DNA from: Thiobacillus sp.
GTDB taxonomy: Bacteria; Pseudomonadota; Gammaproteobacteria; Burkholderiales; Thiobacillaceae
Length of the DNA stretch: 18,822 nucleotides
Assembly: GCF_024708915.1 (NCBI RefSeq)
Contig: NZ_JANJXQ010000203.1
Location: 1-18,822 of the forward strand
Reading direction: 5' to 3'
Shown: positions 1 to 13,354 of the stretch, piece by piece
Numbering within the stretch: the stretch's first letter is position 1
How the letters are laid out: each line of letters begins with the position of its first letter
The notes under the pieces: generated by a model
Databases searched by the model: none
What the model was told of the DNA's origin: nothing
What the model saw: the letters and a program-made list of their open reading frames with translations, nothing else
Position numbers and translations under genes: made by a program

Positions 1-38
1 GGCACCAGGCCACCCACCGCCAGCCGTGACTCAGGCAT
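1..38 (-). CDS. nrdG: Anaerobic RNR-activating protein NrdG, N-terminal fragment (runs off the window)
   Basis: Only the first 12 codons and two bases are in the window (start MPESRLAVGGLV). The 'GGLVP'-type opening is what I know from radical SAM activases that install the glycyl radical on class III ribonucleotide reductase. The CxxxCxxC cluster that would prove it lies beyond the edge. The ATG overlaps the stop of the upstream 59-residue ORF by 8 bases (ATGCCTGA), indicating translational coupling, and the position after nrdD is the usual one for nrdG. The identity rests on context and a very short sequence. Confidence 0.65.
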   Translation of the reverse strand, partial: MPESRLAVGGLV

Positions 39-210
39 GGGCCGTGCGTCCGCCATCGGGTTCGATGAAGTGGCGCCGCTCGGCGTGCTCGCCCTGCTTG
101 CCGGCGTTGAACTCGGACACCGGGCGGTGGTAGCCCATAACGCGCGTCCAGACTTCGCAGCGCTGGCGTTCGTGGTCCTGCAAAGGGATGTGTTCGGTGG
201 TCGGGGACAT
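31..210 (-). CDS. Small separate glycyl-radical segment of the class III ribonucleotide reductase
   Basis: A 59-residue ORF opening at ATG 208-210, with AAGGAG 7 bases upstream. Its core WTRVMGYHRPVSEFNAGK resembles the C-terminal glycyl-radical segment of NrdD proteins (pattern R-V/T-x-G-Y), which makes Gly26 the likely radical site. The large NrdD encoded just upstream stops after its cysteine/zinc-type motif and lacks this segment, so this ORF probably supplies it in trans. It sits 29 bases after the nrdD stop and overlaps the nrdG start by 8 bases. It has its own start codon and ribosome-binding site, which argues against a simple frameshift. Alternative: a sequencing error that splits one gene. 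Function is inferred from the motif and position. Confidence 0.75.
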   Translation of the reverse strand: MSPTTEHIPLQDHERQRCEVWTRVMGYHRPVSEFNAGKQGEHAERRHFIEPDGGRTAHA

Positions 211-239
211 GGTCGCTCCTTAGGTTGTGGGTAAAAGAA

Positions 240-2252
240 TCAGTGGGCCTGCCCGCGGCGAGCGAGGAGTTCTTCGTCGCACTTGGGGCAGAACTCGTGC
301 TCGCCTGCGAGATAGCCGTGCTTCGGGCAGATCGAGAAGGTGGGTGTGACCGTGATGTAGGGCAGGCGGAAGCGGGTCAGCGCGGTGCGCACGAGCTGCC
401 GGCAGGCCTCTGACGTGGAGATGCGCTCGCGCATGTACAGGTGCAGCACGGTGCCGCCGGTGTAGCGGGTCTGCAGGTCGTCCTGGCGCAGCAGGGCCTC
501 GAAGGGGTCGTCGGTGAAGCCCACCGGCAGTTGCGAGGAGTTGGTGTAGTAGGGCTGCTCCGCCGTGCCGGCCTGCAGGATGCCGGGCCAGCGCTTGCGG
601 TCTTCCCTGGCGAAGCGGTAGGTCGTGCCCTCGGCCGGGGTGGCCTCCAGGTTGTAGAGGTTGCCGGTCGCTTCCTGGTAGTCGCGCATCTTGTCGCGCA
701 GCCGATCGAGCAGGCGCAGCGCCAGGGCGTGGCCTTCCGAGTGAGTAATGTCATGGGCACCACCGCTGTAGTTGCGCACCATCTCGTTGATGCCGTTCAC
801 GCCGATGGTCGAGAAGTGGTTGCGCAGCGTGCCGAGGTAGCGCTTGGTGTAGGGGAACAGGCCGTTGTCCATCAGGCGCTGGATTTCCTTGCGCTTGATT
901 TCCAGCCCGTTCCTCGCCATGTCGAGCAGCGCGTCGAGGCGGCGCAGCAATCCGGCTTCGTCGCCCTTGTACTCGTAGCCCAGGCGCGCGCAGTTGACCG
1001 TCACCACGCCGACCGAGCCGGTCTGCTCGGCCGAGCCGAACAGGCCGTTGCCGCGCTTCAGGAGTTCGCGCAGGTCGAGCTGCAGGCGGCAGCACATCGA
1101 ACGGATGTGGTTCGGCTTCATCTCCGAATTGATGAAGTTCTGGAAGTAGGGCAGGCCGTAGCGCGCGGTCATGGCGAACAGGCGTTCGGCGTTTTCCGAC
1201 TCCCAGGGGAAGTCCGGCGTCATGTTGTAGGTCGGGATCGGGAAGGTGAACACGCGGCCTTTGGCGTCGCCGGTAGTCATCACCTCGATGTAGGCACGGT
1301 TGATCATGTCCATCTCGACCTGCAGCTCGCCGTAGGTGAAGGACATTTCCTTGCCGCCGATCACCGGCACCTGCTCGCGCAGGTCCTCGGGGCAGGTCCA
1401 GTCGAAGGTGAGGTTGGTGAACGGCGTCTGGGTGCCCCAACGCGACGGCACGTTGAGGTTGTAGATCAGCTCCTGGATGCACTGGCGCACCTGGTCGTAG
1501 CTCATGCCGTCGTTGCGGATGAACGGCGCCATGTAGGTGTCGAACGACGAGAACGCCTGCGCGCCGGCCCATTCGTTCTGCAGCGTGCCGAGGAAGTTGA
1601 CGATCTGGCCGACCGCGGAGGACATGTGCTTGGGCGGCCCCGCCTCGACCTTGCCCGGCACGCCGTTCAAGCCCTCGTGCAAGAGCGTGCGCAGCGACCA
1701 GCCGGCGCAGTAGCCGGCCAGCATGTCGAGGTCGTGGACGTGGATCGAGCCGTCGCGGTGCGCTTCGCCGAGCTCGGGCGGGTAGACGTGGTTGAGCCAG
1801 TAGTTGGCCACCACCTTGCCCGAGACGTTGAGGATCAGGCCGCCCAGGCTGTAGCCCTGGTTGGCGTTGGCGTTGACCCGCCAGTCCTGGCGCGACAGGT
1901 ATTCGTTGATCGAGGATTCGACGTCGACCAGTGTCTTGCGGTCCTCGCGCAGCTTTTTGTGCGTTTCGCGATAGACGATGTAGGCACGCGCGGTAGCCAG
2001 GTGGTTGGCGGCAATCAGGCTCTGCTCGACCACATCCTGGATGCGCTCGATGCTCGGCGGGGCGTTGCGGAATTTGTGGATCAGCACCTTCACCACCTGG
2101 GCAGTGAGCAAGTCGGCTTCGGCTTCGCCGAATTCGCCGCTGGCCTGCCCGGCACGCAAAATGGCCGAACGTATCTTTGTGGCATCGAATATGGCCTGAT
2201 GCCCGTCGCGCTTGATGACTTCGCGGGGCAGCGCTGCTATCACTGAATTCAT
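240..2252 (-). CDS. nrdD: Anaerobic (class III) ribonucleoside-triphosphate reductase, large catalytic part
   Basis: Reduces ribonucleoside triphosphates to dNTPs under anoxia by glycyl-radical chemistry in the cytoplasm. The 670-residue product opens with an ATP-cone regulatory domain (about residues 9-100, REVIKRDGHQAIFDATKI). The barrel follows, with the family stretch HIRSMCCRLQLDLREL (C387/C388, one presumably the thiyl cysteine) and then GSVGVVTVNCARLGY. It ends with a probable metal site C642-x2-H645 / C655-x2-C658 and stops 12 residues later, without the glycyl-radical tail found on one-piece NrdDs; that tail appears to be the next ORF. I chose ATG 2252 because AGGAGG lies 8 bases upstream. 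A longer frame back to TTG 2318 would begin inside the likely promoter. ATG 2258 is only 2 bases from the same AGGAGG and so is less likely. Confidence 0.93.
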   Translation of the reverse strand: MNSVIAALPREVIKRDGHQAIFDATKIRSAILRAGQASGEFGEAEADLLTAQVVKVLIHKFRNAPPSIERIQDVVEQSLIAANHLATARAYIVYRETHKKLREDRKTLVDVESSINEYLSRQDWRVNANANQGYSLGGLILNVSGKVVANYWLNHVYPPELGEAHRDGSIHVHDLDMLAGYCAGWSLRTLLHEGLNGVPGKVEAGPPKHMSSAVGQIVNFLGTLQNEWAGAQAFSSFDTYMAPFIRNDGMSYDQVRQCIQELIYNLNVPSRWGTQTPFTNLTFDWTCPEDLREQVPVIGGKEMSFTYGELQVEMDMINRAYIEVMTTGDAKGRVFTFPIPTYNMTPDFPWESENAERLFAMTARYGLPYFQNFINSEMKPNHIRSMCCRLQLDLRELLKRGNGLFGSAEQTGSVGVVTVNCARLGYEYKGDEAGLLRRLDALLDMARNGLEIKRKEIQRLMDNGLFPYTKRYLGTLRNHFSTIGVNGINEMVRNYSGGAHDITHSEGHALALRLLDRLRDKMRDYQEATGNLYNLEATPAEGTTYRFAREDRKRWPGILQAGTAEQPYYTNSSQLPVGFTDDPFEALLRQDDLQTRYTGGTVLHLYMRERISTSEACRQLVRTALTRFRLPYITVTPTFSICPKHGYLAGEHEFCPKCDEELLARRGQAH

Positions 2253-2295
2253 TCCCATCGCCTCCTGATCAACATTTTGTGCATTGCCGACGTCA

Positions 2296-2323
2296 AACAT
2301 ACGACATCTTGTGTTCAAGTCAA
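2296..2323 (-). promoter_or_regulatory. Candidate sigma70-type promoter of nrdD
   Basis: Read on the minus strand, TTGACT (2323-2318) is followed after 16 bases by TATGTT (2301-2296), matching 5/6 and 4/6 of the -35 and -10 consensus. It would start transcription near 2289, leaving a leader of about 37 bases before ATG 2252. I see no convincing FNR/Anr box (TTGAT-N4-ATCAA) here, although nrd genes of this class are commonly oxygen-regulated. Confidence 0.45.
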
Positions 2324-2358
2324 GGAGAAATTAAGGTTGGCATATCCTGATAAACTTA

Positions 2359-2381
2359 AATATGTATTTTTTCATCGACTT
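2359..2381 (+). promoter_or_regulatory. Possible NsrR half-site upstream of the hemerythrin gene
   Basis: AATATGTATTT at 2359-2369 matches 9-10 of 11 bases of the NsrR half-site I know (AAGATGYATTT). Its first ten bases are identical to the left half of the stronger site at 4924-4946. A mirrored right half at the expected 11-1-11 spacing is poor. TTAAAT (2356-2361) overlaps it in the same way that TATAAT overlaps the 4924 site, so the layout is similar. No good -35 is visible at matching distance. GGAGG at 2384-2388 is the hemerythrin ribosome-binding site. Confidence 0.35.
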
Positions 2382-2394
2382 ATGGAGGCATAGC

Positions 2395-2835
2395 ATGGGT
2401 ATGATTCTGGAGTATCTGGGAGGCGACCACCGCGCCTGCGACGATTTGTTTGCATCCGCCGAAGCCGCCGTGGCGCAGAAGAACTGGGACAACGCGCGCA
2501 GCCTGTTCGACCGCTTTCAGGCAGCGATGGTGCATCATCTGAGGATGGAGGAAGAGGTGCTGTTCCCCGCGTTCGAAGCCCGTACCGGCAACACGATGGG
2601 GCCGACCTACGTCATGCGCACCGAGCACGAGCAGATGCGCGCCCTGCTGCAGGACATGGCGCGCGCGGCGCTGGCGGCCGACCACAACGGCTATCTCGGC
2701 CTGTCGGAAACGCTCAACATGCTGCTGCAGCAGCACAATCTGAAGGAGGAAAACATGCTCTACCCGATGTCCGATCAGGTGCTTGCGGCCGATAGCGAGG
2801 CACTGATCCGCAGCATGGATGCGGTGGCGAAGTGA
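2395..2835 (+). CDS. Hemerythrin-domain (HHE) protein
   Basis: A 146-residue cytoplasmic four-helix-bundle protein, probably with a diiron site. The ligand pattern is readable: H12 (GDHRACD), H48-x3-E52 (HHLRMEEEVLFP), H78 (TEHEQM), and H114-x3-E118 (QQHNLKEENMLYP). This is the two-module HHE arrangement of bacterial hemerythrin-like proteins, which bind O2 or NO or take part in repair of nitrosative damage (YtfE/DnrN-like roles are known for relatives). ATG 2395 has GGAGG 6 bases upstream; the 11-codon upstream extension has no comparable support. It leads a probable three-gene operon with a DUF2249 protein and a membrane protein, next to an NsrR-like regulator, so an NO-related role is the best inference. 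Substrate is unknown. Confidence 0.9.
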   Translation: MGMILEYLGGDHRACDDLFASAEAAVAQKNWDNARSLFDRFQAAMVHHLRMEEEVLFPAFEARTGNTMGPTYVMRTEHEQMRALLQDMARAALAADHNGYLGLSETLNMLLQQHNLKEENMLYPMSDQVLAADSEALIRSMDAVAK

Positions 2836-2850
2836 CCGCACGCAGTGTTG

Positions 2851-3114
2851 ATGGCCGCGCCGGCTGACGAAATCCTCGTCGACGCCCGCTGGCTGGAACC
2901 GCCGCAGCCGATGGAACAGGTGCTGCACACGCTGGCCCTGCTGCAGCCCGGCCAGCACATCCGGCTGCTGCTGCATCGCCAACCTTTTCCGCTGTATGCC
3001 ATCCTCGATAGCCGCGGCTACCGCCACGACACCGCGGCGCAGGCGGATGGAAGCTATGTAATCCTGATCCGGCCGGCGCAGGGCAATACGCTGCAGGAGC
3101 CCCCCACCGCATAG
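2851..3114 (+). CDS. DUF2249 domain protein (first copy)
   Basis: An 87-residue protein with the DUF2249 signature: LEPPQPMEQVLHTLALLQPG, then LLLHRQPFPLYAIL, then a YVILI strand near the end. DUF2249 proteins are small TusA-like-fold proteins of unknown biochemical role, often found beside hemerythrin, NO-related and denitrification genes. The frame opens immediately after the hemerythrin stop, with GTG (2845), TTG (2848) and ATG (2851) in a row. I chose ATG, but the ribosome-binding site is weak and translation may be coupled to the hemerythrin gene. Compared with the second copy (4960-5214), this one keeps the LHRQPFPLY stretch where the other has FVNDHDPLPL. Confidence 0.85.
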   Translation: MAAPADEILVDARWLEPPQPMEQVLHTLALLQPGQHIRLLLHRQPFPLYAILDSRGYRHDTAAQADGSYVILIRPAQGNTLQEPPTA

Positions 3115-3139
3115 CGGCACAGGCAATGCCCGCCCAACC

Positions 3140-4429
3140 ATGAGTATGCAAACCGGACTTTCCTTCGAACAGGCACCGCCATTCGCGCAGCCGCTGCGGT
3201 TCTTTCTCACCGCGCCGCTGTTCCTGCTGGCCGCCGCGGTCCTGATCATGCTGGCCCCCACTGCGCTGGCCTCGCGCTGGACGCTGCCGGCGCTCGCGCT
3301 CACTCACGCGCTGACGCTGGGTTTCCTCGCCATGGCGATGCTGGGTGCGCTGCTGCAGATGCTGCCGGTGGTGGCAGGGGCGGCATTGCCCGCGTCCCGC
3401 GGCGTGGCCGCGTCCACCCATTTTCTGCTTGCGGCCGGAACCGTGGCCCTGATGGCGGGCTTCCTCGGCGCAGACGCGCGTGCGCTCGCCGCCGCAATGC
3501 TCCTGCTGGGCTGCGGTTTTGCAGTTTTCCTCGCCGCAACGGCGATCGGCCTGCGGCGCGCGGTTGCCAGCGCCACGGTGACCGGCATGCGGCTCGCCGC
3601 GATCAGCCTCGGCCTGACCCTTCTCCTCGGCATGGCGCTCGCCAGCATGCGGGCCGGTGGATGGACACCAGCCAAAGACGAAATCTTCGTCGCCGCGCAT
3701 GTCGGCTTCGGCCTGCTCGGCTGGATATTGCTGCTGGTGATCGGCGTCGCCTACCAGGTCGTGCCGATGTTCCAGATCACGCCGCCCTACCCTCCCCGGC
3801 TCATGCGCTGGCTGGCCGGCGCCATCCTTGCCTTGCTGCTGCTGCATGCGATTGCCCCGCTGCTGCCCGCGGCAACGGAAATCACCCTGCTCGCCGAAAG
3901 CGGTCTCGCCGCGGGGGTTCTGGTCTTCGCGCTGGCCACCTTGCGCCTGCAATCGCGGCGCCGCAGAAAGCTGCCCGACGTCACCCTGGATTTCTGGCGC
4001 GTCGGCATGGCCAGCCTGATCGCCGGCACGGCCGTCTGGCTGCTGGCCCGGCTCTGGCCGGCCTGGGCGGGCAGCGATGCCTATCCGCTATTGCTGGGCG
4101 TGCTGTTCGTCGCCGGCTTCGCCGTGAGCGTGGTCTGCGGCATGCTCTACAAGATCGTGCCCTTCCTCGCCTGGTTTCACCTGCAAGCCCAGTTGCAGGC
4201 GCGCGCGGGCAGCATCCCCACCATGAAGGACATGATTGCGGAACGCGCAAAGCGCTGGCAATTTCGTCTCCACCTCGGCGCCTGCATGCTGCTCATCGCC
4301 GCTCCGTTCTGGCCAAAGCTGCTGGCCGTCCCGGCGGGTATCGGACTGGCGCTCTCGGCGGTGCTGCTGGAGCTCAACCTGCTGTCAGCCGTGCGGCGTT
4401 TTTCCCGGCACGGCGGGCGCTTTTCCTAG
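3140..4429 (+). CDS. Polytopic membrane protein with three G-x6-P repeats (heme-copper-oxidase/NnrS-like, function unknown)
   Basis: A 429-residue, very hydrophobic protein with roughly 12 predicted transmembrane helices and no signal peptide. Three segments share a pattern: H56...GALLQMLP (P76), H187...GVAYQVVP (P209), and GMLYKIVP (P341) followed by H347. Membrane histidines ahead of such motifs recall heme-binding helices of the heme-copper oxidase or NnrS type, but I cannot place it firmly in either family. It follows DUF2249 by 25 bases and has only a weak ribosome-binding site. Its last 45 bases overlap the 3' end of the convergent nsrR-like gene. A related protein lies at 5226-6368. 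A role in NO or nitrogen-oxide tolerance is inferred from neighbours only. Confidence 0.75.
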   Translation: MSMQTGLSFEQAPPFAQPLRFFLTAPLFLLAAAVLIMLAPTALASRWTLPALALTHALTLGFLAMAMLGALLQMLPVVAGAALPASRGVAASTHFLLAAGTVALMAGFLGADARALAAAMLLLGCGFAVFLAATAIGLRRAVASATVTGMRLAAISLGLTLLLGMALASMRAGGWTPAKDEIFVAAHVGFGLLGWILLLVIGVAYQVVPMFQITPPYPPRLMRWLAGAILALLLLHAIAPLLPAATEITLLAESGLAAGVLVFALATLRLQSRRRRKLPDVTLDFWRVGMASLIAGTAVWLLARLWPAWAGSDAYPLLLGVLFVAGFAVSVVCGMLYKIVPFLAWFHLQAQLQARAGSIPTMKDMIAERAKRWQFRLHLGACMLLIAAPFWPKLLAVPAGIGLALSAVLLELNLLSAVRRFSRHGGRFS

Positions 4430-4861
4430 TTTCGCGTCGGCGGCCCAGGCGGGGACGGCAAAGGCGGGCAACAAATCCGCCAGGGTGTAGGCGTCCAGAC
4501 TGGCCAGAAAGGCGCGTCCCGCATCGAGCAGAACGGATTTGAGCGCACAGCCTGGCAACAGGCGGCATGCCGTGTCGCCTGGCCGGAAGCACTCGGCCAG
4601 TTCGAACCCGGTTTCCATGTCGCGCACCACATCGCCAATCCGGATCTGCTCGGGGGGACGCGCCAGCCGGAAGCCGCCCCCCTTGCCGCGCACCGTTTCG
4701 ATGTAGCCCTTGACGCCCAACTGGTGTACCACGCGCGTCAGGTGGTGGCGGGAAATGCCGTGCTCGCTGGCGATCTCGGCTACCGTGACCCGGTCATCGG
4801 GATGCGCGCCCAGGTAAATCAGCACCCTCAGGGAAAAATCGGTAAAGCGGGTGAGTTGCAT
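4385..4861 (-). CDS. nsrR: Rrf2-family NO-sensing regulator, NsrR-like
   Basis: A 158-residue Rrf2 regulator with an N-terminal winged helix-turn-helix (MQLTRFTDFSLRVLIYLG; VTVAEIASEHGISRHHLTRVV; beta-wing GKGGGFRLA). The Fe-S cluster cysteines are C91, C99 and C105 (ECF...ACRLLPGC, spacing C-x7-C-x5-C), as in NsrR proteins, where a [4Fe-4S] or [2Fe-2S] cluster reacts with NO and relieves repression. I chose ATG 4861, which gives the canonical MQLTRFTDFSLR start; the frame extends 6 codons to a TTG. The gene is divergent from the second DUF2249 gene across a dyad-symmetric promoter, and its own -10 lies in one arm, so autoregulation is plausible. IscR is the main alternative, but the cysteine spacing and the hemerythrin neighbour favour NsrR. 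Confidence 0.88.
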   Translation of the reverse strand: MQLTRFTDFSLRVLIYLGAHPDDRVTVAEIASEHGISRHHLTRVVHQLGVKGYIETVRGKGGGFRLARPPEQIRIGDVVRDMETGFELAECFRPGDTACRLLPGCALKSVLLDAGRAFLASLDAYTLADLLPAFAVPAWAADAKLGKAPAVPGKTPHG

Positions 4862-4885
4862 GGTGGCCAAACACGTCAAACAAAA

Positions 4886-4930
4886 ACATATTATAAGCGC
4901 AGAAAATACGATCCCGTGCTTATAATATGT
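4886..4930. promoter_or_regulatory. Inverted repeat with outward-facing TATAAT boxes (divergent promoters)
   Basis: ACATATTATAAGC (4886-4898) and its exact reverse complement GCTTATAATATGT (4918-4930) flank 19 bases. Each 13-bp arm holds a perfect TATAAT: 4921-4926 on the plus strand, towards the DUF2249 gene, and 4895-4890 on the minus strand, towards nsrR. No good -35 hexamer is visible for either, which suggests dependence on an activator or weak basal promoters. The mirrored arrangement would let one regulator control both directions. Confidence 0.7.
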
Positions 4931-4946
4931 ATTCCATTTACATCTA
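4924..4946 (+). promoter_or_regulatory. Candidate NsrR operator
   Basis: AATATGTATTC-C-ATTTACATCTA fits the 11-1-11 NsrR palindrome. The left half matches 9/11 and the right half (read in reverse complement) about 8/11 of AAGATGYATTT. ATGTA...TACAT forms the visible dyad. It begins inside the -10 box and covers the expected transcription start, the classic place for a repressor, and lies in the promoter region beside the nsrR-like gene. Confidence 0.6.
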
Positions 4947-4959
4947 TAGGACGACGTCC

Positions 4960-5214
4960 ATGAGCACTCATCTGCATCTTCGCCAGGATCAGGTCTATCC
5001 GTTCGACGCGCGCGGAATCGCCAAGCGCTTCCGCCACGCCGCCATTTTCGGTGCGCTGGACGCGCTGAACTCGGGCGAGCGCATGCGTTTCGTCAACGAC
5101 CACGATCCGCTGCCGCTGCTCGACCAGCTGCGCGCCCGCTATGGCGACGCCGTTGCGATCCAGTACCTGCAGCGCAACCCGGGGGAAATCGTGATCGACT
5201 TCGTCCGCACCTGA
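4960..5214 (+). CDS. DUF2249 domain protein (second copy)
   Basis: An 84-residue protein with the DUF2249 pattern: FDARGIAKRFRHAAIFGALDAL, then GERMRFVNDHDPLPLLDQL, then GEIVIDF at the end. Start ATG 4960 has AGGA 8 bases upstream; the reading frame extends further but the extra residues lie in the promoter. It is the first gene of the divergent unit controlled by the TATAAT/NsrR-box region and is followed after 11 bases by a membrane protein gene, repeating the DUF2249 then membrane-protein order seen at 2851-4429. Its biochemical role is unknown. The conserved FxNDHDPxPL stretch is typical of this family and may bind a ligand or metal (inference). Confidence 0.87.
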   Translation: MSTHLHLRQDQVYPFDARGIAKRFRHAAIFGALDALNSGERMRFVNDHDPLPLLDQLRARYGDAVAIQYLQRNPGEIVIDFVRT

Positions 5215-5225
5215 ACGGCCCGGCG

Positions 5226-6368
5226 GTGTTGCCGGCGCTGGTGTTCCTCGCTCTGACCGCGTTTGCCGCGGCCTTGCTGTGGTCGCCCCACGCCGGCCGT
5301 GCCGCCGCCCTGCACCTGATTCTGGCGGTAGGCGCCATGCCGCTGATCTTCGGTGCCATGAGCCATTTCATCCCGGTGCTCACCCGCACCCGCAGCGCAC
5401 CCGGCGCACTGGCTACCGTCCCCGTTCTGGCGCTGGCCGGCGGTGCGCTGGTGGTGGCCGCGCTCGGTTTTCCCGGCATGCTCTGGGGACAACAGGCAGG
5501 CGCGCTGCTGGCCGTAACCGCTGCCAGCGCGCTGTTCGTCTGGAGCCGCCGCCGGCGCGCCGGCATGCTGGGCCGTCCCCACCCCGGCCTGGACTGGTAC
5601 GAAGCGGCGCTGGCCTGCCTCGTGGCGGCCCTGCTCGCGATTCTCGCCAGCACGGTCTGGCCGCAACAGGCGCCTGCCCTGCGCCGTCTCCACCTCCATC
5701 TCAACACGCTCGGCTTCGTCGGGCTGACCGCCATGGGTACCCTCGCCGTGCTGCTGCCGACCGTTGCCGGCAGGCCCGACCCGCAAACCAGCCCACGGCT
5801 GCGCCGCGATCTGCCCTGGGCCGTCGCCGGCACGCTGCTGGTCGCCGTCGGCGCGGCCTGGTTCGGCCCGCTCGCCTGGATCGGCGGCGCGCTATGGGCG
5901 GCCCCGCCGGCGCGGCTGGGAACCCGCTGGCTGCGGCTCTATCGCGCTGAAATCGTCGCGCTGCACGGTGCGGCGCCGCTGCTCGCCGCCGCGCTGGCGG
6001 GGCTCGTCGTCAGCGCGATGCTCGGCGCCGCGAACGCCATCCCCGCAGCGGCCACGTTGCATTCCGTCCAGCCGGCATGGGCCTTCGTCGCCGGATTCAT
6101 CCTGCCCCTGGTATCCGGGGCGGCCAGCCAGTTGTTGCCGGTATGGCTGCGTCCTGGCATGCAGGGCGGCTGGCACGCCAGGCTGCGCGGCAATCTGGGG
6201 CGCTACGGCGGCGCCCGTGCCATCCTGTTCGCCATCGCCGGCGGCGCGGCCGGAACCGGTCAGGAATGGGGGCTGCTGCTGGGCGCCGTTACGCTGATCC
6301 TGTTTCTGCTGCAGGCCGGCGTCGCGCTGGCGCAGGCCTTGATCATCCAGCCAAGGAGTCCGTCATGA
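5226..6368 (+). CDS. Second polytopic membrane protein with three G-x6-P repeats
   Basis: A 380-residue protein with about 10-11 hydrophobic segments. Three segments echo those of the 3140-4429 product: H30...GAMSHFIP (P50), H158...GTLAVLLP (P178), and H279...GAASQLLP (P305). In the first two, the glycines fall at H+5/6 and H+13 and the proline at H+20. The product is likely a heme- or metal-binding membrane protein, or a NnrS-like factor; the family is not firmly recognised. The start is GTG 5226 or TTG 5229, both without a clear ribosome-binding site, so coupling to the DUF2249 gene is likely. Its stop overlaps the start of the FmdE-like gene by 4 bases (ATGA). Confidence 0.75.
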   Translation: MLPALVFLALTAFAAALLWSPHAGRAAALHLILAVGAMPLIFGAMSHFIPVLTRTRSAPGALATVPVLALAGGALVVAALGFPGMLWGQQAGALLAVTAASALFVWSRRRRAGMLGRPHPGLDWYEAALACLVAALLAILASTVWPQQAPALRRLHLHLNTLGFVGLTAMGTLAVLLPTVAGRPDPQTSPRLRRDLPWAVAGTLLVAVGAAWFGPLAWIGGALWAAPPARLGTRWLRLYRAEIVALHGAAPLLAAALAGLVVSAMLGAANAIPAAATLHSVQPAWAFVAGFILPLVSGAASQLLPVWLRPGMQGGWHARLRGNLGRYGGARAILFAIAGGAAGTGQEWGLLLGAVTLILFLLQAGVALAQALIIQPRSPS

Positions 6369-6991
6369 GCTACCCCGCCTTTTTCGATGCCGTCGCCCGC
6401 ATCACGCTGTACGACCCGCTGGCCGAATTCCTCGGCACCACCGACAGCGGGCGGATCGAATACGGCTACCTCGATGCGGTCAAGCTCGCCGGGCATTCCT
6501 GCCCCACGGTGGCGGGCGCCTACCTGATGACCCGGCAGGCGCTCGGCAGGCTCTATCCGGACAGCCTGCCGGAGCGCGGCGGCATCCGCGTCGAATTCGG
6601 CGCGGCACAGACCGACGGCGTCACCGGCGTCATCGCTGCCGTGGCCGGCCTGTTGACCGGTGCGGCGGGCGAAGGCGGCTTCAAGGGCCTGGCGGGGCGG
6701 TTCAGCCGCCGCAATCTGCTGGCCTTTGCGGCCGGAAACGCCGCCGAAGCCCGTTTCAGCCGTCTCGACACCGGCGCGCGCGTGGCCGTCGCCTACCATC
6801 CCGAAGCCGTCCCCGCGCCGCCGGAACTGCAGGCGCTGATGCCGAGAATGCTGGCGGGAGCGGCGAGTGGCGCGGAACGGGCAGAATTCGGCCGGCTCTG
6901 GCAATTGCGGGTCAAGCGCATCCTGATCGACCATTGCGACGATCCGGCGCTGCTCGCATGCCGGGACGATCCGATGTCTGGCAGCGTCTAG
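6365..6991 (+). CDS. FmdE-family protein (formylmethanofuran dehydrogenase subunit E-like)
   Basis: A 208-residue protein with the FmdE hallmark GHSCPTVAGAYLMTRQAL near residues 45-62, where His and Cys probably bind a metal. ATG 6365 has AAGGAG 6 bases upstream and overlaps the previous stop as ATGA, so it is the third gene of the nsrR-divergent operon. FmdE domains outside methanogens are widespread and mostly uncharacterised; no methanofuran pathway genes are in this window, so formylmethanofuran chemistry should not be assumed. It lacks an obvious C-terminal zinc ribbon. Two late cysteines (DHCDDPALLAC) may matter. Operon position suggests a redox or NO-related task together with the membrane protein. 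Confidence 0.8.
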   Translation: MSYPAFFDAVARITLYDPLAEFLGTTDSGRIEYGYLDAVKLAGHSCPTVAGAYLMTRQALGRLYPDSLPERGGIRVEFGAAQTDGVTGVIAAVAGLLTGAAGEGGFKGLAGRFSRRNLLAFAAGNAAEARFSRLDTGARVAVAYHPEAVPAPPELQALMPRMLAGAASGAERAEFGRLWQLRVKRILIDHCDDPALLACRDDPMSGSV

Positions 6992-7014
6992 ACGAGGGGA
7001 CGTTCGCCCCGGCT

Positions 7015-7620
7015 TCAGACCCTTGGCGCCCAGCCTTCGATCAGGGTGATGATGACGGCGTCGGCCTGCTCCGTCAGCACGAAACGCTGGTCCGAGAGAA
7101 CCCAGCGGAAAGCCAGCCCCTGCACTGCGGCAATCAGGATGCAGGCATTCTGCTGGGGCACGATATCGGGGCGGATTTCGCCCTGCGCCTGCGCGGCGCT
7201 GATCAGGCCGGCGATGAAGTTCAGGAAGAACTGCACCAGTTCGTTCATGCGGTCGCGGAAAACGGGATCGCCGCTTTGCAGTTCTTCCGAGAACAGCAGG
7301 CGAGGGATACCGGGCTGCTGCTGGATGAAATTCAGATGGGCGCGGATGACCGCCTTCAGGCGTTCCAGTGGGGTCAGCTCCGCCAGGCCGAGGCCGGCCA
7401 TTTCTTGCTGCAGCCGTTCCTGAATGGTGTCCACCAGGGCAAGCAGGACGTGGCTCTTGTTGCCGAAGTGGAGGAACAGGGTGGGCTGCGCGATGCCGAC
7501 CGCCCTGGAAAGCGAACGGGTGGTAAGCCTGGCCACCCCTTCGTGGCGAATGATTTCCATCGCCGCCTCGATGATGTCATGGCGGCGGACTTCTGCGGAT
7601 TTCCTTTTCTTGACGGTCAC
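7015..7620 (-). CDS. TetR/AcrR-family transcriptional regulator
   Basis: A 201-residue one-component regulator. The N-terminal helix-turn-helix reads ILEAA-like 'IIEAAMEIIRHEGVARLT', then 'RSLSRAVGIAQPTLFLHF', 'GNKSHVLLALVD', the standard TetR DNA-binding domain. The C-terminal part (about residues 70-201) is all-helical and should bind an unknown ligand. The start used is GTG 7620 with a poor ribosome-binding site. It is convergent with the FmdE gene (23-base gap) and lies on the same strand downstream of DUF2892, FadL and cytochrome genes, so it may control them. The palindrome at 9838-9873 is a candidate target, but TetR operators are usually shorter, so this link is tentative. Confidence 0.9.
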   Translation of the reverse strand: MTVKKRKSAEVRRHDIIEAAMEIIRHEGVARLTTRSLSRAVGIAQPTLFLHFGNKSHVLLALVDTIQERLQQEMAGLGLAELTPLERLKAVIRAHLNFIQQQPGIPRLLFSEELQSGDPVFRDRMNELVQFFLNFIAGLISAAQAQGEIRPDIVPQQNACILIAAVQGLAFRWVLSDQRFVLTEQADAVIITLIEGWAPRV

Positions 7621-7710
7621 GGTGTTCGGCTGCCTGGCGCAATTGCAACATAAGGAATATAAGCGCCTGGCGGCTGTTGCGGAAATTTGCCGCGCCCGGG
7701 CGAAAGCGAT

Positions 7711-7767
7711 CGGCAGCGGCGCGCGCCGCTGCCGAAAGCCGCCGCATCAGAGCTGTTCAGGAACAGC
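7711..7767. terminator. Two hairpin-forming palindromes after the DUF2892 gene
   Basis: A perfect 24-bp palindrome, CGGCAGCGGCGC mirrored at 7711-7734, and a second, GCTGTTC-AG-GAACAGC at 7752-7767, which spans the stop codon of the DUF2892 gene. Both would fold in the minus-strand transcript. Neither has a long U-tract, so they may attenuate or stabilise the 3' end rather than act as a classical terminator. The remainder of 7621-7756 shows no gene. Confidence 0.4.
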
Positions 7768-7960
7768 AGCTGCCTTCCTTGACGCCCGCTTTCTTGAGCA
7801 TGAAAGCCAGCGGGCAGAAGCCGGTCACGCCGCTTTGCGCCAGATTGGCGCCGACAAAAGCGGTGAGCCAGAGCCAGGCCGGGTTGAAGAAATGGGCCAG
7901 GGCGATGCTGAGCAGCACCATCAGGCCTGCCATCAGATGTACGGTACGGTCTACGTTCAT
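7757..7960 (-). CDS. DUF2892 small inner-membrane protein (YgaP-type membrane domain)
   Basis: A 67-residue protein with two hydrophobic helices and the family ending GFCPLAFMLKKAGVK. It resembles the DUF2892 membrane module that elsewhere is fused to rhodanese domains or stands beside sulfur and redox genes. The Cys in TGFCP is the conserved one; two further cysteines end the protein (SCCS), possibly a metal or thiol site. ATG 7960 has GGAG 7 bases upstream, better than the 4-codon-longer frame. It lies 66 bases after the fadL-like stop on the same strand. Role unknown. Confidence 0.85.
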   Translation of the reverse strand: MNVDRTVHLMAGLMVLLSIALAHFFNPAWLWLTAFVGANLAQSGVTGFCPLAFMLKKAGVKEGSCCS

Positions 7961-8026
7961 GAGAATCTCCATTCCAAAATTGTTGCAAGCACTAACGAAA
8001 CAGCCGCGACCGCGTCGCGGCCCCGA

Positions 8027-9184
8027 TCAGAACGCGTACGCAATGTTGACGTTGTACTGGTTCTGGTTGATCTTGATCGTGTTGGCCGGCCCAACACTGG
8101 AGGTCATATCGTTTTCAAAGGCATGGGTGTAGGCGAAGCTGCCGCTCACCTTGTCGCTGAACTTGCGTGTGAGCCCGAACGACAGGTGGTGCTCGACGAT
8201 CGCGGTCGAACCGAGGTTGGAGTTGACGTCCTCACGGCCGATAGGCGACTTGCCGTAGTTGTAGCCGACGCTCACCGCCATCGGTCCCATGTCCTTTTTC
8301 ACGCCGATCGCATAGACCGTCTGGTCGTCCCAGCCGAAGGCGAGGGCCGGGGGAATTCCGGCCGTTCCACCGGGATTGCTGACGCTGATGCGATTCATGA
8401 CGTCGCTGAAGTAGATGCGCTTGACATCGAACTCGACCTGCAGCCCCGGCATCGGCTTGAAGGACAGACCCAGCGCCAGCGATGCGGGCATGTCCATGTC
8501 GAAGCTGACCGGCCCGTTGAGCGTGTTGTACTCCATCTTGGCGATATCCGTCTTGCTCGCGTAACTCAGGCCGGCCTGCAGCTTGGGATTGATCTTGTAG
8601 ATCGCACCGAGTGTCGCGCCGAAGCCGAACTGCTGGTTTTGCGGGAGGCTGAACGCGGGCATCGTGAGCGCCATGCTTTGGTTGGCGATGTTGAGCGACG
8701 CGCCGAGCGTCAAGGCGTCGTTGACCTTGTACGCCGCCGCCGGCGAGAAGCGGAACACGGCCTTGGTCGTTGCGATCACCTGGTTGTTGGCCATCCCGAC
8801 GAGATGGTCGGGCACGTTCACGCCCATCCCCGACACACCGCCCAGCCCCATGCCGAGGAACAGCCGGTCGTTGACGTTGAACACCGCCGCGCCGGTCGGC
8901 ATCATGTACCAGTTCGAGTCGCTCTCCTGGCCGTTGACCTCGCGCGGCGGATTCAACAGGCCGAAGCCGAGATCCATGCGCACGTCCTTGATGCCGAGGT
9001 CGGCCATCCCGGCCGGGTTGACCAGCACGGTCGCGGCGTCCTGGGCCTGCGCGACGGTGGCGCCGCCCATCCCGGCCTGGGCGGCCGACATGGCGAACAT
9101 CTGGTCGCCGTTGGTGGCGTGGGCGTTGTGCGCCCATGCAAAGAGGGCGGTCGATACGGCAGTTGCAACTAATTTTTTATTCAT
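8027..9184 (-). CDS. OmpP1/FadL-family outer-membrane channel
   Basis: A 385-residue outer-membrane beta-barrel precursor. Residues 1-23 form a signal peptide (cleavage near AHA-TNG). The FadL hallmarks follow: an N-terminal plug with GGATVAQAQDAATVLVNPAG (the NPAG motif), alternating amphipathic strands, and a C-terminal aromatic end (NIAYAF) as required for barrel assembly. Family members take up hydrophobic compounds such as long-chain fatty acids, toluene or alkanes; the substrate here cannot be told. ATG 9184 has GGAG about 9 bases upstream. It follows the cytochrome gene by 30 bases, so the two are probably one transcript. Pairing a periplasmic cytochrome with a hydrophobic-substrate porin hints at oxidation of a lipophilic compound or a membrane-stress function (inference). 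Confidence 0.93.
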   Translation of the reverse strand: MNKKLVATAVSTALFAWAHNAHATNGDQMFAMSAAQAGMGGATVAQAQDAATVLVNPAGMADLGIKDVRMDLGFGLLNPPREVNGQESDSNWYMMPTGAAVFNVNDRLFLGMGLGGVSGMGVNVPDHLVGMANNQVIATTKAVFRFSPAAAYKVNDALTLGASLNIANQSMALTMPAFSLPQNQQFGFGATLGAIYKINPKLQAGLSYASKTDIAKMEYNTLNGPVSFDMDMPASLALGLSFKPMPGLQVEFDVKRIYFSDVMNRISVSNPGGTAGIPPALAFGWDDQTVYAIGVKKDMGPMAVSVGYNYGKSPIGREDVNSNLGSTAIVEHHLSFGLTRKFSDKVSGSFAYTHAFENDMTSSVGPANTIKINQNQYNVNIAYAF

Positions 9185-9214
9185 ATTCTGATCTCCACAA
9201 TTTGAGGGCGGGCG

Positions 9215-9811
9215 TTACTTGGAAAGGGGGGTCATCAGGTTGGCCGAAATGCCGGGCACGCCACGGAATTTCTGATGGCAGGCGACGCATCCCGTCATGA
9301 TGTCGCTCATGTAGGAGGCCGCTTTCGGCATATCCCCCGCATCCGCCGCGTCCGCCAGCTTGAGCGCACTGCCTTCGACGATGTCGTTCATGGCCGGCAG
9401 CACCCCGAGGTCGTTGTCGGTCACCTGGTTCAGCGCAAAATAGGGCAGCAACCCGCCCTTGGGGATGCGATGGTTGGCCAGCCGCCGAGCCGCCTCGGAC
9501 GCCTGTTCGGCGTTGTCGGTCGCCAGCGCCGAGGCGATGCTCTGGTATTCGGAGAGGATTTCATGCATGACCTGGCGCAGGGTCGTCTCCTTGGCGCGCC
9601 GCACATGGCCCGCATGCAGCTGCTGGATGGTGCCTTTGAGTTCGGGCGACAGCGCCATCACCTTCTGGCGCAGTTCCGGCTTGTACGTCTTCACCATCTG
9701 CTGCATCTCGGCCGGCATGGGAGCGGCGCCTTTGGGCGGTTCAGCGGCAGAGAGCCCGGACGATGCAAGACTGGCGGCCAATATCAGCGGGGTTAACAGG
9801 ATTTTTTTCAT
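9215..9811 (-). CDS. Periplasmic c-type cytochrome with C-terminal heme site (class II-like)
   Basis: A 198-residue precursor: signal peptide in residues 1-22 (MKKILLTPLILAASLASS..., cleavage near LSAAEPP), a mostly helical body, and a single CVACH heme motif followed by QKFR about 20 residues from the end. A heme site close to the C-terminus followed by K-F-R is the arrangement of class II cytochromes (cytochrome c' and relatives). The mature part, about 175 residues, is longer than the usual 125-130, so this is a divergent member or a different helical cytochrome. ATG 9811 has GGAG about 6 bases upstream; the frame continues upstream through the palindrome but without supported starts. It is the first gene of the fadL operon. 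Cytochrome c' relatives bind NO, which fits the neighbourhood but is not shown. Confidence 0.85.
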   Translation of the reverse strand: MKKILLTPLILAASLASSGLSAAEPPKGAAPMPAEMQQMVKTYKPELRQKVMALSPELKGTIQQLHAGHVRRAKETTLRQVMHEILSEYQSIASALATDNAEQASEAARRLANHRIPKGGLLPYFALNQVTDNDLGVLPAMNDIVEGSALKLADAADAGDMPKAASYMSDIMTGCVACHQKFRGVPGISANLMTPLSK

Positions 9812-9837
9812 GGGATCTCCAGGGTTGTGATGGCACA

Positions 9838-9873
9838 GGTCGAACACATGATCAATAGATCATGTGTTCGACC
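9838..9873. promoter_or_regulatory. Perfect 16-bp-arm palindrome overlapping the cytochrome promoter
   Basis: GGTCGAACACATGATC (9838-9853), a 4-base loop AATA, then the exact reverse complement (9858-9873). It lies 27 bases upstream of the cytochrome ATG. On the minus strand a perfect TATAAT occupies 9880-9875, so transcription should begin inside the palindrome: either a repressor operator at the start site or a strong hairpin in the 5' leader. The sequence on the gene-distal side is AT-rich. No second copy was noticed in the window. Confidence 0.7.
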
Positions 9874-10146
9874 GATTATATAAATGAACTTTTTAAATAA
9901 TGCAAGAAGATATTTAAGTCTGCATAAAAAAACGGATTGCGGCGTGCCCGGAATCATTCCGGTGCCATTCGTGCGGCATACGGATACAATTTCATCCTTC
10001 AGGCAGTGAATCAAAGCGCCGACAAGGCGCTGAACGAACTCGCCGCAGCCTTTTTCAGCGGTATTCCGCCGGCCAGAATCAATACGGGGCACGGTGCCGG
10101 GCGCAAGCTCCGGTCGGGCCTGTCAACGGTATTTATAAGGATCAGA
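9874..10146. other. Intergenic region between cytochrome and NMO-like genes
   Basis: No gene is supported here. The first 60 bases are AT-rich, with a minus-strand TATAAT at 9880-9875. A short palindrome CCGGAAT-C-ATTCCGG lies at 9948-9962. The rest is GC-rich with no recognisable coding signal; the in-frame extension of the downstream NMO gene through this region lacks a supported start. AAGGA at 10137-10141 is the ribosome-binding site for the NMO-like gene. Together with the palindrome at 9838-9873 this makes a gene-free stretch of about 335 bases. Confidence 0.5.
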
Positions 10147-11391
10147 ATGAAACGCGTGGATGATTTCCGCCTGCGCTTTGGCAAACAGGAGCTGGTGCCG
10201 ATCGTCATCGGCGGCATGGGGGTGGACATTTCGACCGTCGAACTGGCGCTCGAAGTGGCGCGCCTCGGCGGTATCGGCCATATTTCCGACGCCATGGTGC
10301 AGACCGTGTCCGACCGCCGCTTCGACACCAATTACGTCAGCCAGAAGCTGAAGAAGTACAAGGCCAACGTCGCCAGCAGCGACAAGTCTGCGGTCCATTT
10401 CAACCTCGCGGAACTCGAAGAGGCGACGCGCAGCCACGTCCTCCATGCCATGGAAGCCAAGCGCGGCGACGGCATGATCTTCATCAACTGCATGGAGAAG
10501 CTGACCATGAACGCGCCGCGCGAGACGCTGCGCATGCGCCTTTCCGCCGCGCTCGACGCCGGCATCGACGGCATCACGCTGTCGGCCGGCCTGCACCTCG
10601 GCTCGTTCGCGCTGATCGAGGACCACCCGCGCTTTCGCGACGCCAAACTCGGCATCATCGTCTCCTCGCCGCGCGCGCTGGCGATGTTCCTGCGCAAGAA
10701 CGCGCGGCTGCAGCGGCTGCCGGACTACGTCGTGGTGGAAGGCCCGCTCGCCGGCGGCCATCTCGGCTTCGGCCCGGACTGGGCGCAATACGACTTGCGC
10801 ACCATCGTCGACGAAGTGCTGGCTTTCCTCAAAGCCGAGCACCTCGACATTCCGGTGATCGCTGCCGGCGGCATTTTCACCGGCAGCGATGCCGCGGCCT
10901 TTCTCGAACAGGGCGCGGCGGCGGTGCAGGTGGCGACCCGCTTCACCGTCACCCGCGAGTGCGGCCTGCCGGACAAGGTCAAACAGGAATATTTCAGGGC
11001 CAGCGAGGACGACATCGAGGTCAACACCATTTCGCCGACCGGCTACCCGATGCGCATGCTCAAGGGCAGCCCCGGCATCGGCGCCGGCATCCGCCCCAAC
11101 TGCGAAGCCTACGGCTACCTGCTCGACGCCAGCGGCCGCTGCGCCTACATCGACGCCTACAACAGTCAGGTGGAACGGCACCCGGGCGCGAAGAAGGTGA
11201 AAGTCTTCGACAAGACCTGCCTGTGCACCCACATGCGCAACTTCGACATCTGGACCTGCGGCCAGACCGCCTGGCGCCTGAAGGACACCACCCGCCGCGC
11301 GCCGGACGGCAGCTATCAGGTGCTCAGCGCCGAACAGGTGTTCCACGACTATCAGTTCAGCGTCGACCACAAAATCGCGCTGCCGGCCTGA
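10147..11391 (+). CDS. Nitronate monooxygenase-like FMN flavoprotein with cysteine-rich C-terminus
   Basis: A 414-residue TIM-barrel flavoprotein of the NMO/2-nitropropane dioxygenase family. Visible motifs are VPIVIGGMGVDIS at the N-terminus, EGPLAGGHLGF (H205, the family's catalytic-type His), and PVIAAGGIFTGSDAAAFLEQGAAAVQVATRF for FMN phosphate binding. The last 95 residues are unusual: C319, C332, C358, C360 and C371, the last three in KTCLCTHMRNFDIWTCG, which could hold a metal or Fe-S cluster. ATG 10147 has AAGGA 5 bases upstream; a 70-codon upstream extension is rejected. True NMO activity is not assured, since the family also includes enoyl reductases and unknown oxidoreductases. It is convergent with the ubi operon. 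Confidence 0.85.
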   Translation: MKRVDDFRLRFGKQELVPIVIGGMGVDISTVELALEVARLGGIGHISDAMVQTVSDRRFDTNYVSQKLKKYKANVASSDKSAVHFNLAELEEATRSHVLHAMEAKRGDGMIFINCMEKLTMNAPRETLRMRLSAALDAGIDGITLSAGLHLGSFALIEDHPRFRDAKLGIIVSSPRALAMFLRKNARLQRLPDYVVVEGPLAGGHLGFGPDWAQYDLRTIVDEVLAFLKAEHLDIPVIAAGGIFTGSDAAAFLEQGAAAVQVATRFTVTRECGLPDKVKQEYFRASEDDIEVNTISPTGYPMRMLKGSPGIGAGIRPNCEAYGYLLDASGRCAYIDAYNSQVERHPGAKKVKVFDKTCLCTHMRNFDIWTCGQTAWRLKDTTRRAPDGSYQVLSAEQVFHDYQFSVDHKIALPA

Positions 11392-11410
11392 AGCGCACGC
11401 GCTGCCGCTC

Positions 11411-11431
11411 GCCGGAAAGATCTTTTCCGGC
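11411..11431. terminator. Hairpin between convergent genes (bidirectional terminator candidate)
   Basis: GCCGGAAA (11411-11418), a 5-base loop GATCT, then TTTCCGGC (11424-11431). It lies in the 55-base gap between the convergent NMO-like gene and ubiT, where both transcripts should end. There is no strong T-run on either side, so efficiency is uncertain. Confidence 0.55.
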
Positions 11432-11446
11432 AGCCTGGAAAGCCGG

Positions 11447-11899
11447 TTATGCCGCCATCAGGCGCCGCGCCATGCCGGCCAGCGGCGCGGGCAGGCGCTG
11501 CAACACCGCCTCGGGGTCGAGGGCGTCGAGCAGATTCTTGACGGTGAGGCCAAGCTCGGTGTCGCCTTCGCTCACCAGGCGGCGGCTGAAAAAGAGGGTG
11601 TCGGGGTCTTCGCGCCGGCCCAGCAGCAGCAGGAAATCGCGGGCGGTGGCGCTGATGGTGAGCTCGGGCGCGCCGCTGTCCGGCGCGAATCCGCGCGCCG
11701 TGACGGTAAAGCGCAGGCTGAGCCCGAGATCCTTGACGCGGATGGCGTAGCGCCGGCCGGCCAGCGGCTGCCAGTCGAGCGTTTTCAGTGCCGGCCACAA
11801 CAGCCGGTTGGCCGCCAGCGAAAACGTCAGACTGGGCGGCGCGGCGGGAAGCCGGGCGACCGCGTTGGCAAGCTGCGGGGGCAAGGCGAGATTCAGCAT
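11447..11899 (-). CDS. ubiT: UbiT, SCP2-domain factor for O2-independent ubiquinone synthesis
   Basis: A 150-residue protein made almost entirely of a sterol-carrier-protein-2-like domain (PSLTFSLAANRLLWPALKTL; ISATARDFLLLLGRREDPDTLFFSRRLVSEGDTELGLTVKNLLDAL). The RREDPDTLFFSRRL and EGDTELGL stretches are typical of UbiT (YhbT), a lipid-binding accessory factor that works with UbiU and UbiV in anaerobic ubiquinone synthesis. ubiU and ubiV lie upstream in the same gene string, which makes the call strong. ATG 11899 has AGGAG 5 bases upstream; the long upstream extension runs through queD and is not real. It is the last gene of the probable operon. Confidence 0.92.
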   Translation of the reverse strand: MLNLALPPQLANAVARLPAAPPSLTFSLAANRLLWPALKTLDWQPLAGRRYAIRVKDLGLSLRFTVTARGFAPDSGAPELTISATARDFLLLLGRREDPDTLFFSRRLVSEGDTELGLTVKNLLDALDPEAVLQRLPAPLAGMARRLMAA

Positions 11900-11936
11900 G
11901 ATGGCTCCTGTGCTCAATGGATCGGTGGTCTGCTTT

Positions 11937-12377
11937 CTAGCGCACGGCGTCGGCCCAGTTGTTGGGGGTTTCGTACAGCCGCACCCGCTGCAGCCGCAGC
12001 TGGTTGCCGTAGCCGTCGAGGTAGGCCGCGTCGAGGATGCGGAACGCCTCGTTCGCAAGATTTTCCGCCGTGGGCACGACCGGCAGCACCACGGTCTTGT
12101 GTCCAGCCAGCGTCGCCAGGAAGTCGACCACTTCGCGATCGCCCTGGTAGACCAGGAAGGCATGATCCCAGCGGTCGACCAGCGCGGCATTGGCGATGTT
12201 TTTCACTTCGGAGAAGTCCATCACCATGCCCTGCATCGCCGCACCTTCGGTATCAATGATCTCGCCGGAAAGGCTGATCTCGATGGCGTAGCGATGGCCG
12301 TGCAGGTGCCGGCACTGGCTGGCGTGATGGGGAATGCGGTGGCCGGCGTCGAATTCCAGTCTGCGTGTAATCAGCAT
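11937..12377 (-). CDS. queD: 6-carboxy-tetrahydropterin synthase (QueD/PTPS family)
   Basis: A 146-residue pterin enzyme of queuosine precursor synthesis, converting dihydroneopterin triphosphate to 6-carboxy-tetrahydropterin. The zinc histidines are H13 (FDAGHRI), H26 and H28 (CRHLHGH), with the catalytic-type Cys C22 just before them. DRWDHAFLV and VPTAENLANEAFRIL follow, and LYETPNNWADAV ends the protein with the conserved Glu. The ATG overlaps the ubiV stop by 7 bases (ATGCTGA), so it is translated within the ubi operon although no other queuosine gene is nearby. Either it is incidentally co-transcribed, or a member of the family with another role; queD is the simplest reading. Confidence 0.88.
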   Translation of the reverse strand: MLITRRLEFDAGHRIPHHASQCRHLHGHRYAIEISLSGEIIDTEGAAMQGMVMDFSEVKNIANAALVDRWDHAFLVYQGDREVVDFLATLAGHKTVVLPVVPTAENLANEAFRILDAAYLDGYGNQLRLQRVRLYETPNNWADAVR

Positions 12378-13264: not shown

Positions 13265-13267
13265 GAT

Positions 13268-13347
13268 GCGTTAGGCGTTAGGCGTAAAGGGTTAGGCGGG
13301 GACAGGCACGGGCCGAGGCTTTGCGCCTCGCGCCTGACGCCTCGCGC
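13268..13347. repeat. Heptamer repeats forming an imperfect hairpin between ubiU and ubiV
   Basis: GTTAGGC occurs at 13270-13276, 13277-13283 and 13291-13297, in phase with a degenerate copy GTAAAGG at 13284-13290. On the right, CGCCTCG (13324-13330), CGCCTGA (13331-13337) and CGCCTCG (13338-13344) follow the same 7-base step. The arms 13268-13284 and 13331-13347 pair at 14 of 17 positions, giving an imperfect stem-loop inside the operon. It could stabilise or attenuate the ubiU-ubiV transcript, or be a mobile repeat; neither is demonstrated. Confidence 0.7.
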
Positions 13348-13354
13348 AGGGCGC

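Follow-up and report, generated by a model that had tools for sequence, protein, structure and literature searches.

Two gene modules beside an NsrR-type regulator in Thiobacillus: a likely accessory system for nitric oxide and denitrification

Introduction

What purpose is served by a hemerythrin-like protein, two DUF2249 proteins, two polytopic membrane proteins and an FmdE-like protein that are encoded side by side with a regulator of nitric oxide (NO) type? The question is raised by seven genes in an 18,822-nucleotide stretch of a Thiobacillus sp. genome (contig NZ_JANJXQ010000203.1, positions 1 to 18,822, hereafter the window), designated here in their order as H (hemerythrin), D1 (DUF2249), A (membrane protein), the regulator, D2 (DUF2249), B (membrane protein) and F (FmdE-like). 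Our analysis resolves them into two modules, H-D1-A and D2-B(-F), each of which pairs a DUF2249 protein with a 12-helix protein that, according to its predicted structure, has a fold of the NO reductase type and has lost the binuclear centre. It is very likely that they form an accessory system for NO and denitrification with heme proteins of the heme-copper oxidase fold. The modules probably help bacteria to cope with NO of their own making, because they often lie beside genes of NO and nitrite respiration and combine an oxidase-like fold with the absence of its reaction centre.

Results and discussion

Two modules across relatives

Genome contigs were scanned with an alignment of A, and the best 80 of 563 confirmed loci were compared, two of which (L031 and L032) are near twins. 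Genes in these loci were identified by codon-scored calling followed by a profile scan, the latter because codon-scored calling fails in low-GC loci; the labels for cytochrome d1 and radical-SAM genes come from self-made profiles and may take in unrelated beta-propellers or NrdG. The closest named loci among the 80 belong to Thiobacillus metagenome-assembled genomes (A identity 89-90%).

H is present in 79 of the 80 loci, and 72 loci have H and a DUF2249 gene immediately before A in the same orientation, down to about 35% A identity. Seven of the eight loci that depart from this order have no recognised D1 and the eighth, L095, is cut by a contig end. Among distant relatives of A (L027-L029, 27-32% identity), a DUF2249 gene adjoins all three and H is found in two. 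B occurs in 16 of the 80 loci, with a DUF2249 gene directly upstream in 12, and F in 8. In L037, L041 and L048 some 4-8 kb separate A from the regulator and D2, so that the compact cluster of the window is best described as a juxtaposition of two units. Conservation in relatives, on which the initial annotation had staked its reading beforehand, was thus found by the gene-neighbourhood survey; the single NsrR-centred cluster that it described is really two modules, apart in these three loci, and just one of them is widespread.

Pfam searches on representatives identified NorB-type COX1, NorC-like cytochrome c, NorQ and cytochrome d1 around the A loci, as well as Crp/FNR regulators and the HemN, SCP2 and U32-peptidase families. 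In 26 of the 80 loci the stretch examined has at least one nor or heme-d1-type gene; outside the Thiobacillus types (L049-L110) a nor/nir-type gene is found in 25 of 62.

Co-occurrence and physical linkage with denitrification genes

Co-occurrence was assessed in an even sample of 184 genomes from the class. Strict thresholds were applied, since the self-made profiles may include unrelated proteins of the kinds named above. For cytochrome d1, E<1e-100 was required, which 35 of the 73 matching genomes passed; for cNorB the minimum was 790 bits (34 of 45 listed), and NirK had to exceed its cut-off (13 of 26). All other matches were dropped. With RuBisCO added as an unrelated control, the sample contained A in 22 genomes, B in 4, cytochrome d1 in 35, cNorB in 34, NirK in 13 and RuBisCO in 95. 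A was accompanied by cytochrome d1 in 14 of its 22 genomes (p 8e-7), by cNorB in 13 (p 5e-6) and by one or the other in 18 (p 2.6e-9), where all p values are guides, the sampled genomes not being independent. Three of the four B genomes (G001, G072 and G133, not G131) also have A. Physical linkage is more specific than co-occurrence: A lies within 3 kb of a gene for cNorB or a cytochrome-d1 domain in 10 of the 22 genomes (G072, G084, G115, G119, G120, G147, G180, G190, G214 and G243).

Fold and histidines of the membrane proteins

At E<=0.01 neither Pfam nor NCBIfam gave a family match for A or B, and their relatives in sequence databases number at least 2788 and at least 1033, respectively, among the matches listed. 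Their predicted structures have, over the whole length, the 12-helix fold of the catalytic subunit of heme-copper oxidases and NO reductases, in agreement with the membrane heme chemistry that the initial annotation had offered as one possibility. Structural alignments with NorB of cNOR and CcoN of cbb3 oxidase gave 8-15% identity. Both proteins are without the conserved HH of helix 7 and HxH of helix 10, and the set of six histidines for two hemes and CuB/FeB is incomplete in them.

The spacing of heme ligands is nevertheless recognisable. In A, H56 (helix 2) is followed by Pro at +20 and H187 (helix 6) by Pro at +22, and both histidines are present in 13 of 13 and 32 of 32 aligned rows. The corresponding values in B are +20 for H30, +22 for H156 and +20 for H158, all three being present in 20 of 20 rows, and those in cNorB are +21 for H58, +22 for H345 and +20 for H347 (alignment of six rows). 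A H347 is kept in every row of the 32-row alignment but varies in the 13-row one, which is more diverse; further conserved histidines are H94 and H378 in A and H47, H119, H247 and H317 in B. The profile match of A with B is short (P 9.7e-5 over 65 columns). No copy of A was found on PLSDB plasmids at E<=1e-5.

The heme-copper oxidase fold has three-fold pseudo-symmetry; in helix 10 of cNorB the registers +20 and +22 serve two different heme pockets, and, in canonical oxidases, no heme is known in the pore between the first two units. Given histidines on helices 2 and 6, and assuming that symmetry, we infer that the pair in A faces the unit-1/unit-2 pore, one unit away, by rotation, from where cNorB has its low-spin heme. 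A bolder and, in our estimate, unlikely extension would make A and B a class of pseudo-oxidases with the heme moved by 120 degrees into this pore; A and the diiron protein H would then form a membrane complex that reduces NO or clears dinitrosyl iron in a manner unlike NorB, NnrS or Hmp, and B may hold a second heme through the HxH of helix 6.

Soluble partners

The positions H, HxxxE, H and HxxxE, which we take to be the diiron ligands of hemerythrin, are kept almost throughout the 81 homologues of H (about 99% or more), and this full ligand set is in keeping with the diiron or redox repair proposed at the outset. Against the NCBIfam models for RIC/YtfE, H scored 35.9 and 37.8 bits, below the respective cut-offs of 204.7 and 254 bits.

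D1 and D2 (60.8 and 95.4 bits) both exceed the PF10006 cut-off of 29.5 bits for DUF2249, the family that we take to be COG4309, and D1 has a weak match to TusA (25.2 bits, below the cut-off of 28.6). At the position of the TusA cysteine, as placed by the TusA motif, D1 has Pro in 72 of 74 sequences, Ala in 2 and Cys in none, with a Cys one position later in 7; D2 has Cys there in 0 of 20. To judge from these alignments, persulfide transfer by the TusA mechanism is therefore unlikely in either protein. The stretches DARGxAKRFRH, with an invariant His, and NDHxP are nearly invariant in 20 homologues of D2. Some close relatives of F do carry PF02663. By sequence, D1, D2 and F have no relative of solved structure.

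Layout of the cluster

The features are listed in Table 1. H is given from position 2395, where its relatives align; a longer open reading frame (ORF) starting at 2362 was also listed. Gaps of 9, 25 and 11 bases separate H from D1, D1 from A and D2 from B, B and F overlap by 4 bases, and A and the regulator gene overlap tail to tail by 45 bases at their 3' ends. The ORF coordinates thus agree with the tight spacings and 4-base overlap noted initially, and the seven genes said to surround the regulator are present if the regulator itself is counted. Pfam confirmed the hemerythrin, both DUF2249 proteins and the Rrf2 regulator, F falling just short of its cut-off.

Table 1. Genes and putative regulatory elements of the two modules (positions in the window)
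Feature	Position	Strand	Description	Match or remark
H	2395-2835	+	146 residues, single-domain hemerythrin-like diiron protein	PF01814, E 1.4e-22
D1	2845-3114	+	DUF2249, TusA-like without the TusA cysteine	PF10006, E 1.1e-16
A	3140-4429	+	12-helix membrane protein, predicted heme-copper oxidase fold, no CuB ligands	
Regulator	4385-4861	-	NsrR-type, Rrf2	PF02082, E 5.1e-36
D2	4960-5214	+	DUF2249, conserved His, TusA position without cysteine	PF10006, E 1.8e-27
B	5226-6368	+	12-helix membrane protein, predicted heme-copper oxidase fold, HxH in helix 6	
F	6365-6991	+	FmdE-like, invariant GHSCPTVAGAY (18-sequence alignment)	PF02663, 22.8 bits (cut-off 22.9)
Putative NsrR-type site before H	2359-2381	+		2 mismatches
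Putative NsrR-type site before D2	4924-4946	+	overlaps TATAAT 4921-4926	1 mismatch
Putative NsrR-type site before regulator gene	4870-4892			1 mismatch
Inverted repeat	4883-4933		divergent regulator/D2 promoter region	16-base arms 4883-4898 and 4918-4933

Regulator and promoter sites

The best solved match of the regulator is NsrR of S. coelicolor (3.7e-19, aligned over 138 residues). Residues C91, C99, C105 and D8 align with 5n07, and 5n08 has Ala at the three Cys; each Cys is kept in 83% of 12 homologues. The three Cys and Asp8 of the S. coelicolor protein are, we assume, ligands of its iron-sulfur cluster. Together with the conserved sites and the linkage to nor/nir genes, these residues agree with the NO or nitrogen-oxide handling proposed in the initial annotation.

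Sites were sought with the pattern AANATG-N11-CATNTT, our own reduction of the consensus; PMC1274295 gives the NsrR consensus as gATGyAT-N5-ATrCATc. The window holds nine matches at two or fewer mismatches, three of them in promoters of the cluster, and 200 shuffles of the window gave a mean of 2.53 and a maximum of 6. The shared promoter motif reported initially, AATATGTATT, is indeed present upstream of both H and D2. The block TTATAATATGTATTCCATTTACATC before D2 occurs once in the window and is more than chance, since it is nearly unchanged in most Thiobacillus-type relatives; judged by eye, the inverted repeat between the regulator gene and D2 is intact in L048 and degenerate in L031.

Within one mismatch, the pattern precedes D2 in 10 of 10 Thiobacillus-type upstream regions and H in 6 of 19, the window being included in both counts (6 of 18 relatives for H), compared with 4 of 192 other upstream regions of these loci, whose intergenic region may be that of H. 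Outside Thiobacillus, the FNR-type box TTGAY-N4-RTCAA precedes H exactly in 29 of 59 cases and within one mismatch in 40, compared with 33 and 52 of 495 other genes of the same loci, a control that still includes divergent neighbours and other denitrification genes. Before D2 the box is exact in 2 of 9 and within one mismatch in 6 of 9. On these patterns, putative NsrR-type sites are the arrangement of Thiobacillus and FNR/DNR-type boxes prevail elsewhere. The NsrR-centred arrangement put forward initially accordingly fits the Thiobacillus types, where the putative sites are clear before D2; before H, most relatives have no site within one mismatch.

Proposed role and alternatives

In the mechanism that we propose, A (and B) would bind a low-spin b-type heme through the paired histidines of helices 2 and 6, and would pass electrons from the quinone pool to the membrane beside H or bind NO there. 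The modules may thereby keep down free NO and NO-damaged iron during the activity of the nitrite and NO reductases, a task also ascribed to NnrS and YtfE/RIC. NsrR would repress both units until NO damages its iron-sulfur cluster, and the DUF2249 proteins would be subunits for docking or sensing and would not carry sulfur. The specific chemistry, in which NO clearance or iron repair is carried out by a diiron protein with a heme protein as its partner, is put forward tentatively and is more doubtful than the general role; for the full account of an NO-responsive denitrification accessory system of two modules with this chemistry included, we consider the chances to be evenly balanced. If true, it would name a widespread component of denitrifiers, with A and B as yet unmodelled in Pfam and NCBIfam, made of three pieces: an oxidase-fold heme protein without the oxidase centre, a co-encoded diiron partner and a TusA-like protein that lacks the cysteine of TusA. 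What is understood of how denitrifiers restrain NO, hence N2O, and of how the heme-copper oxidase fold was reused would gain as well.

Several observations weigh against this account. RuBisCO also co-occurs with A (19 of 22 genomes compared with 76 of 162 others, p 5e-4), so that part of the co-occurrence reflects lifestyle; among the 95 RuBisCO genomes, A is still linked to either marker (17 of 19, p 1.8e-6). In the 184-genome sample A did not co-occur with NirK (1 of 22 A genomes), and four A genomes (G070, G090, G136 and G163) have neither cNorB nor cytochrome d1 at the thresholds used, G070 having NirK. In 54 of the 80 loci the stretch examined, which is short in many cases, has no nor/nir-type gene. 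The regulator scored 133.1 bits, below the NCBIfam NsrR cut-off of 182, although this is its best NCBIfam match, and is for that reason termed NsrR-type and not NsrR. Eleven of the 19 Thiobacillus-type upstream regions of H match the NsrR-type pattern just at three or more mismatches, and FNR boxes respond to anoxia alone too. Finally, profile comparison gave A and B no link to NorB, NnrS or any solved structure, and heme binding by both is read from cofactor-free models.

An alternative role in the assembly or maturation of NorB/NirS, with A and B delivering or storing heme b or serving as scaffolds for the reductases and H supplying iron, would explain the linkage to norCBQ and to cytochrome-d1/heme-d1-type genes as well as the predicted NorB/CcoN fold common to A and B. 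We regard it as unlikely: just 4 of the 34 cNorB genomes have B and 13 have A, so these proteins are not generally required for NorB, and the four A genomes with neither marker point the same way.

An oxygen module is rather improbable. H would here be an O2-binding hemerythrin and A a redox-linked partner guarding enzymes of anaerobic metabolism, among them the product of the nearby nrdD. In its favour, the Thiobacillus types have H and nrdD in divergent orientation, nrdD is found in 22 of the 80 loci, and FNR-type boxes fit anaerobic control. Outside the Thiobacillus types, however, nrdD occurs in 5 of 62 loci compared with the 25 that have a nor/nir-type gene, and NsrR-type sites are present.

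A sensor of NO, nitrite or nitrate, in which DUF2249 senses and the membrane protein relays, would follow the proposal made for DrpA/DrpB of Thermus, which are DUF2249 proteins described as putative nitrate sensors in PMC6282519, and would give a role to the invariant His of D2. The cluster already has an NO-type regulator, though, and none of the seven proteins has a signalling domain among its Pfam matches at E<=0.01, which leaves this reading improbable as well. Chance neighbourhood of unrelated genes, for which the scarcity of F (8 of 80 loci) and the separation of the modules in several relatives might speak, is very improbable and was rejected for H-D1-A and D2-B on their conserved order (72 of 80 loci, with A identities as low as about 35%, and 12 of 16, respectively), F remaining the exception.

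Comparison with known systems

The accessory system proposed here resembles several known ones in part. A and B have the same predicted whole-length fold and heme-ligand spacing as cNOR NorB and cbb3 CcoN and differ from them in having neither the FeB/CuB histidines nor the helix-10 HxH. H shares the hemerythrin ligand pattern and NsrR-type control with YtfE/RIC and DnrN; it stands far below the RIC cut-off (35.9 compared with 204.7 bits) and presumably is without the N-terminal domain of YtfE/RIC. The HCOH families of Pei et al. 2014 are reported to be three-unit heme-copper oxidase homologues with two conserved His and one heme, connected with denitrification and NO detoxification; A and B likewise have a predicted heme-copper oxidase fold with conserved His. 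The same work is cited in PMC11218638 for DUF2249 adjoining heme-copper oxidase relatives.

NnrS is described as a heme-type membrane protein of NsrR/DNR regulons (PMC1274295) that is said to guard the iron pool against dinitrosyl iron complexes (PMC11526790, citing Stern 2013). This identity was rejected for A and B, which have a different histidine pattern, no PF05940 match at E<=0.01 and no profile similarity (hhalign probabilities against the NnrS of relatives of just 1.8 and 0.5, from shallow profiles); a true NnrS gene lies elsewhere in 44 of 60 relatives.

It had been stated that just the hemerythrin and the regulator have well-understood relatives. The other parts are not wholly unstudied: COG4309 was linked to norB in 2005, when it was assigned, together with norB or nor genes, to NsrR and NnrR regulons and a relevance to NO reductase was suggested (Rodionov et al. 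2005, PMC1274295), and DUF2249 genes are reported to be induced in denitrifying Haloferax mediterranei (PMC11218638). The resemblance to D1 and D2 is that the DUF2249 genes of these accounts and those of DrpA/DrpB adjoin and are co-regulated with genes of nitrogen-oxide respiration, although the accessible parts of the three accounts (PMC1274295, PMC6282519, PMC11218638) do not mention H-A or B partners. No description of an H-D1-A or D2-B module was found in the open-licence literature, mostly surveyed by listings.

Neighbouring genes

In Thiobacillus types the nrdD gene (240-2318, minus strand) is divergent from H, and the nrdD-H intergenic region (2298-2314) has conserved CATACGACATCTTGTGT-like blocks, which we take to resemble NrdR boxes. 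Two genes of the U32-peptidase family (12371-14392, minus strand) presumably resemble UbiU/UbiV, and the SCP2 family UbiT, of O2-independent ubiquinone synthesis; the U32-peptidase family is found in 18 and the SCP2 family in 13 of 81 clustered sequences, window included. A predicted 210-residue protein (9215-9847, minus strand) bears the heme-c motif CVACH close to its C terminus and has no Pfam match at 1e-10. Nitronate-monooxygenase-family genes occur twice (9937-11391, plus strand; 15293-16456, minus strand). A row of riboflavin genes (riboflavin synthase, ribBA-type and lumazine synthase) occupies 16620-18822 on the plus strand, and an Rfam scan of the window gave no FMN riboswitch or other family over threshold.

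A TetR regulator, a YgaP-like membrane segment and a FadL/TodX-type outer membrane protein (7015-9184, minus strand) follow one another in an order that is repeated in L031, L032, L037, L040 and L048. Diiron NO reductases are among the proteins in which ODP domains occur. In L096, L100, L106 and L109, three of which are labelled Rhodocyclaceae, two genes precede H, one for a metallo-beta-lactamase (ODP) protein and one with a match to MCP-signal.

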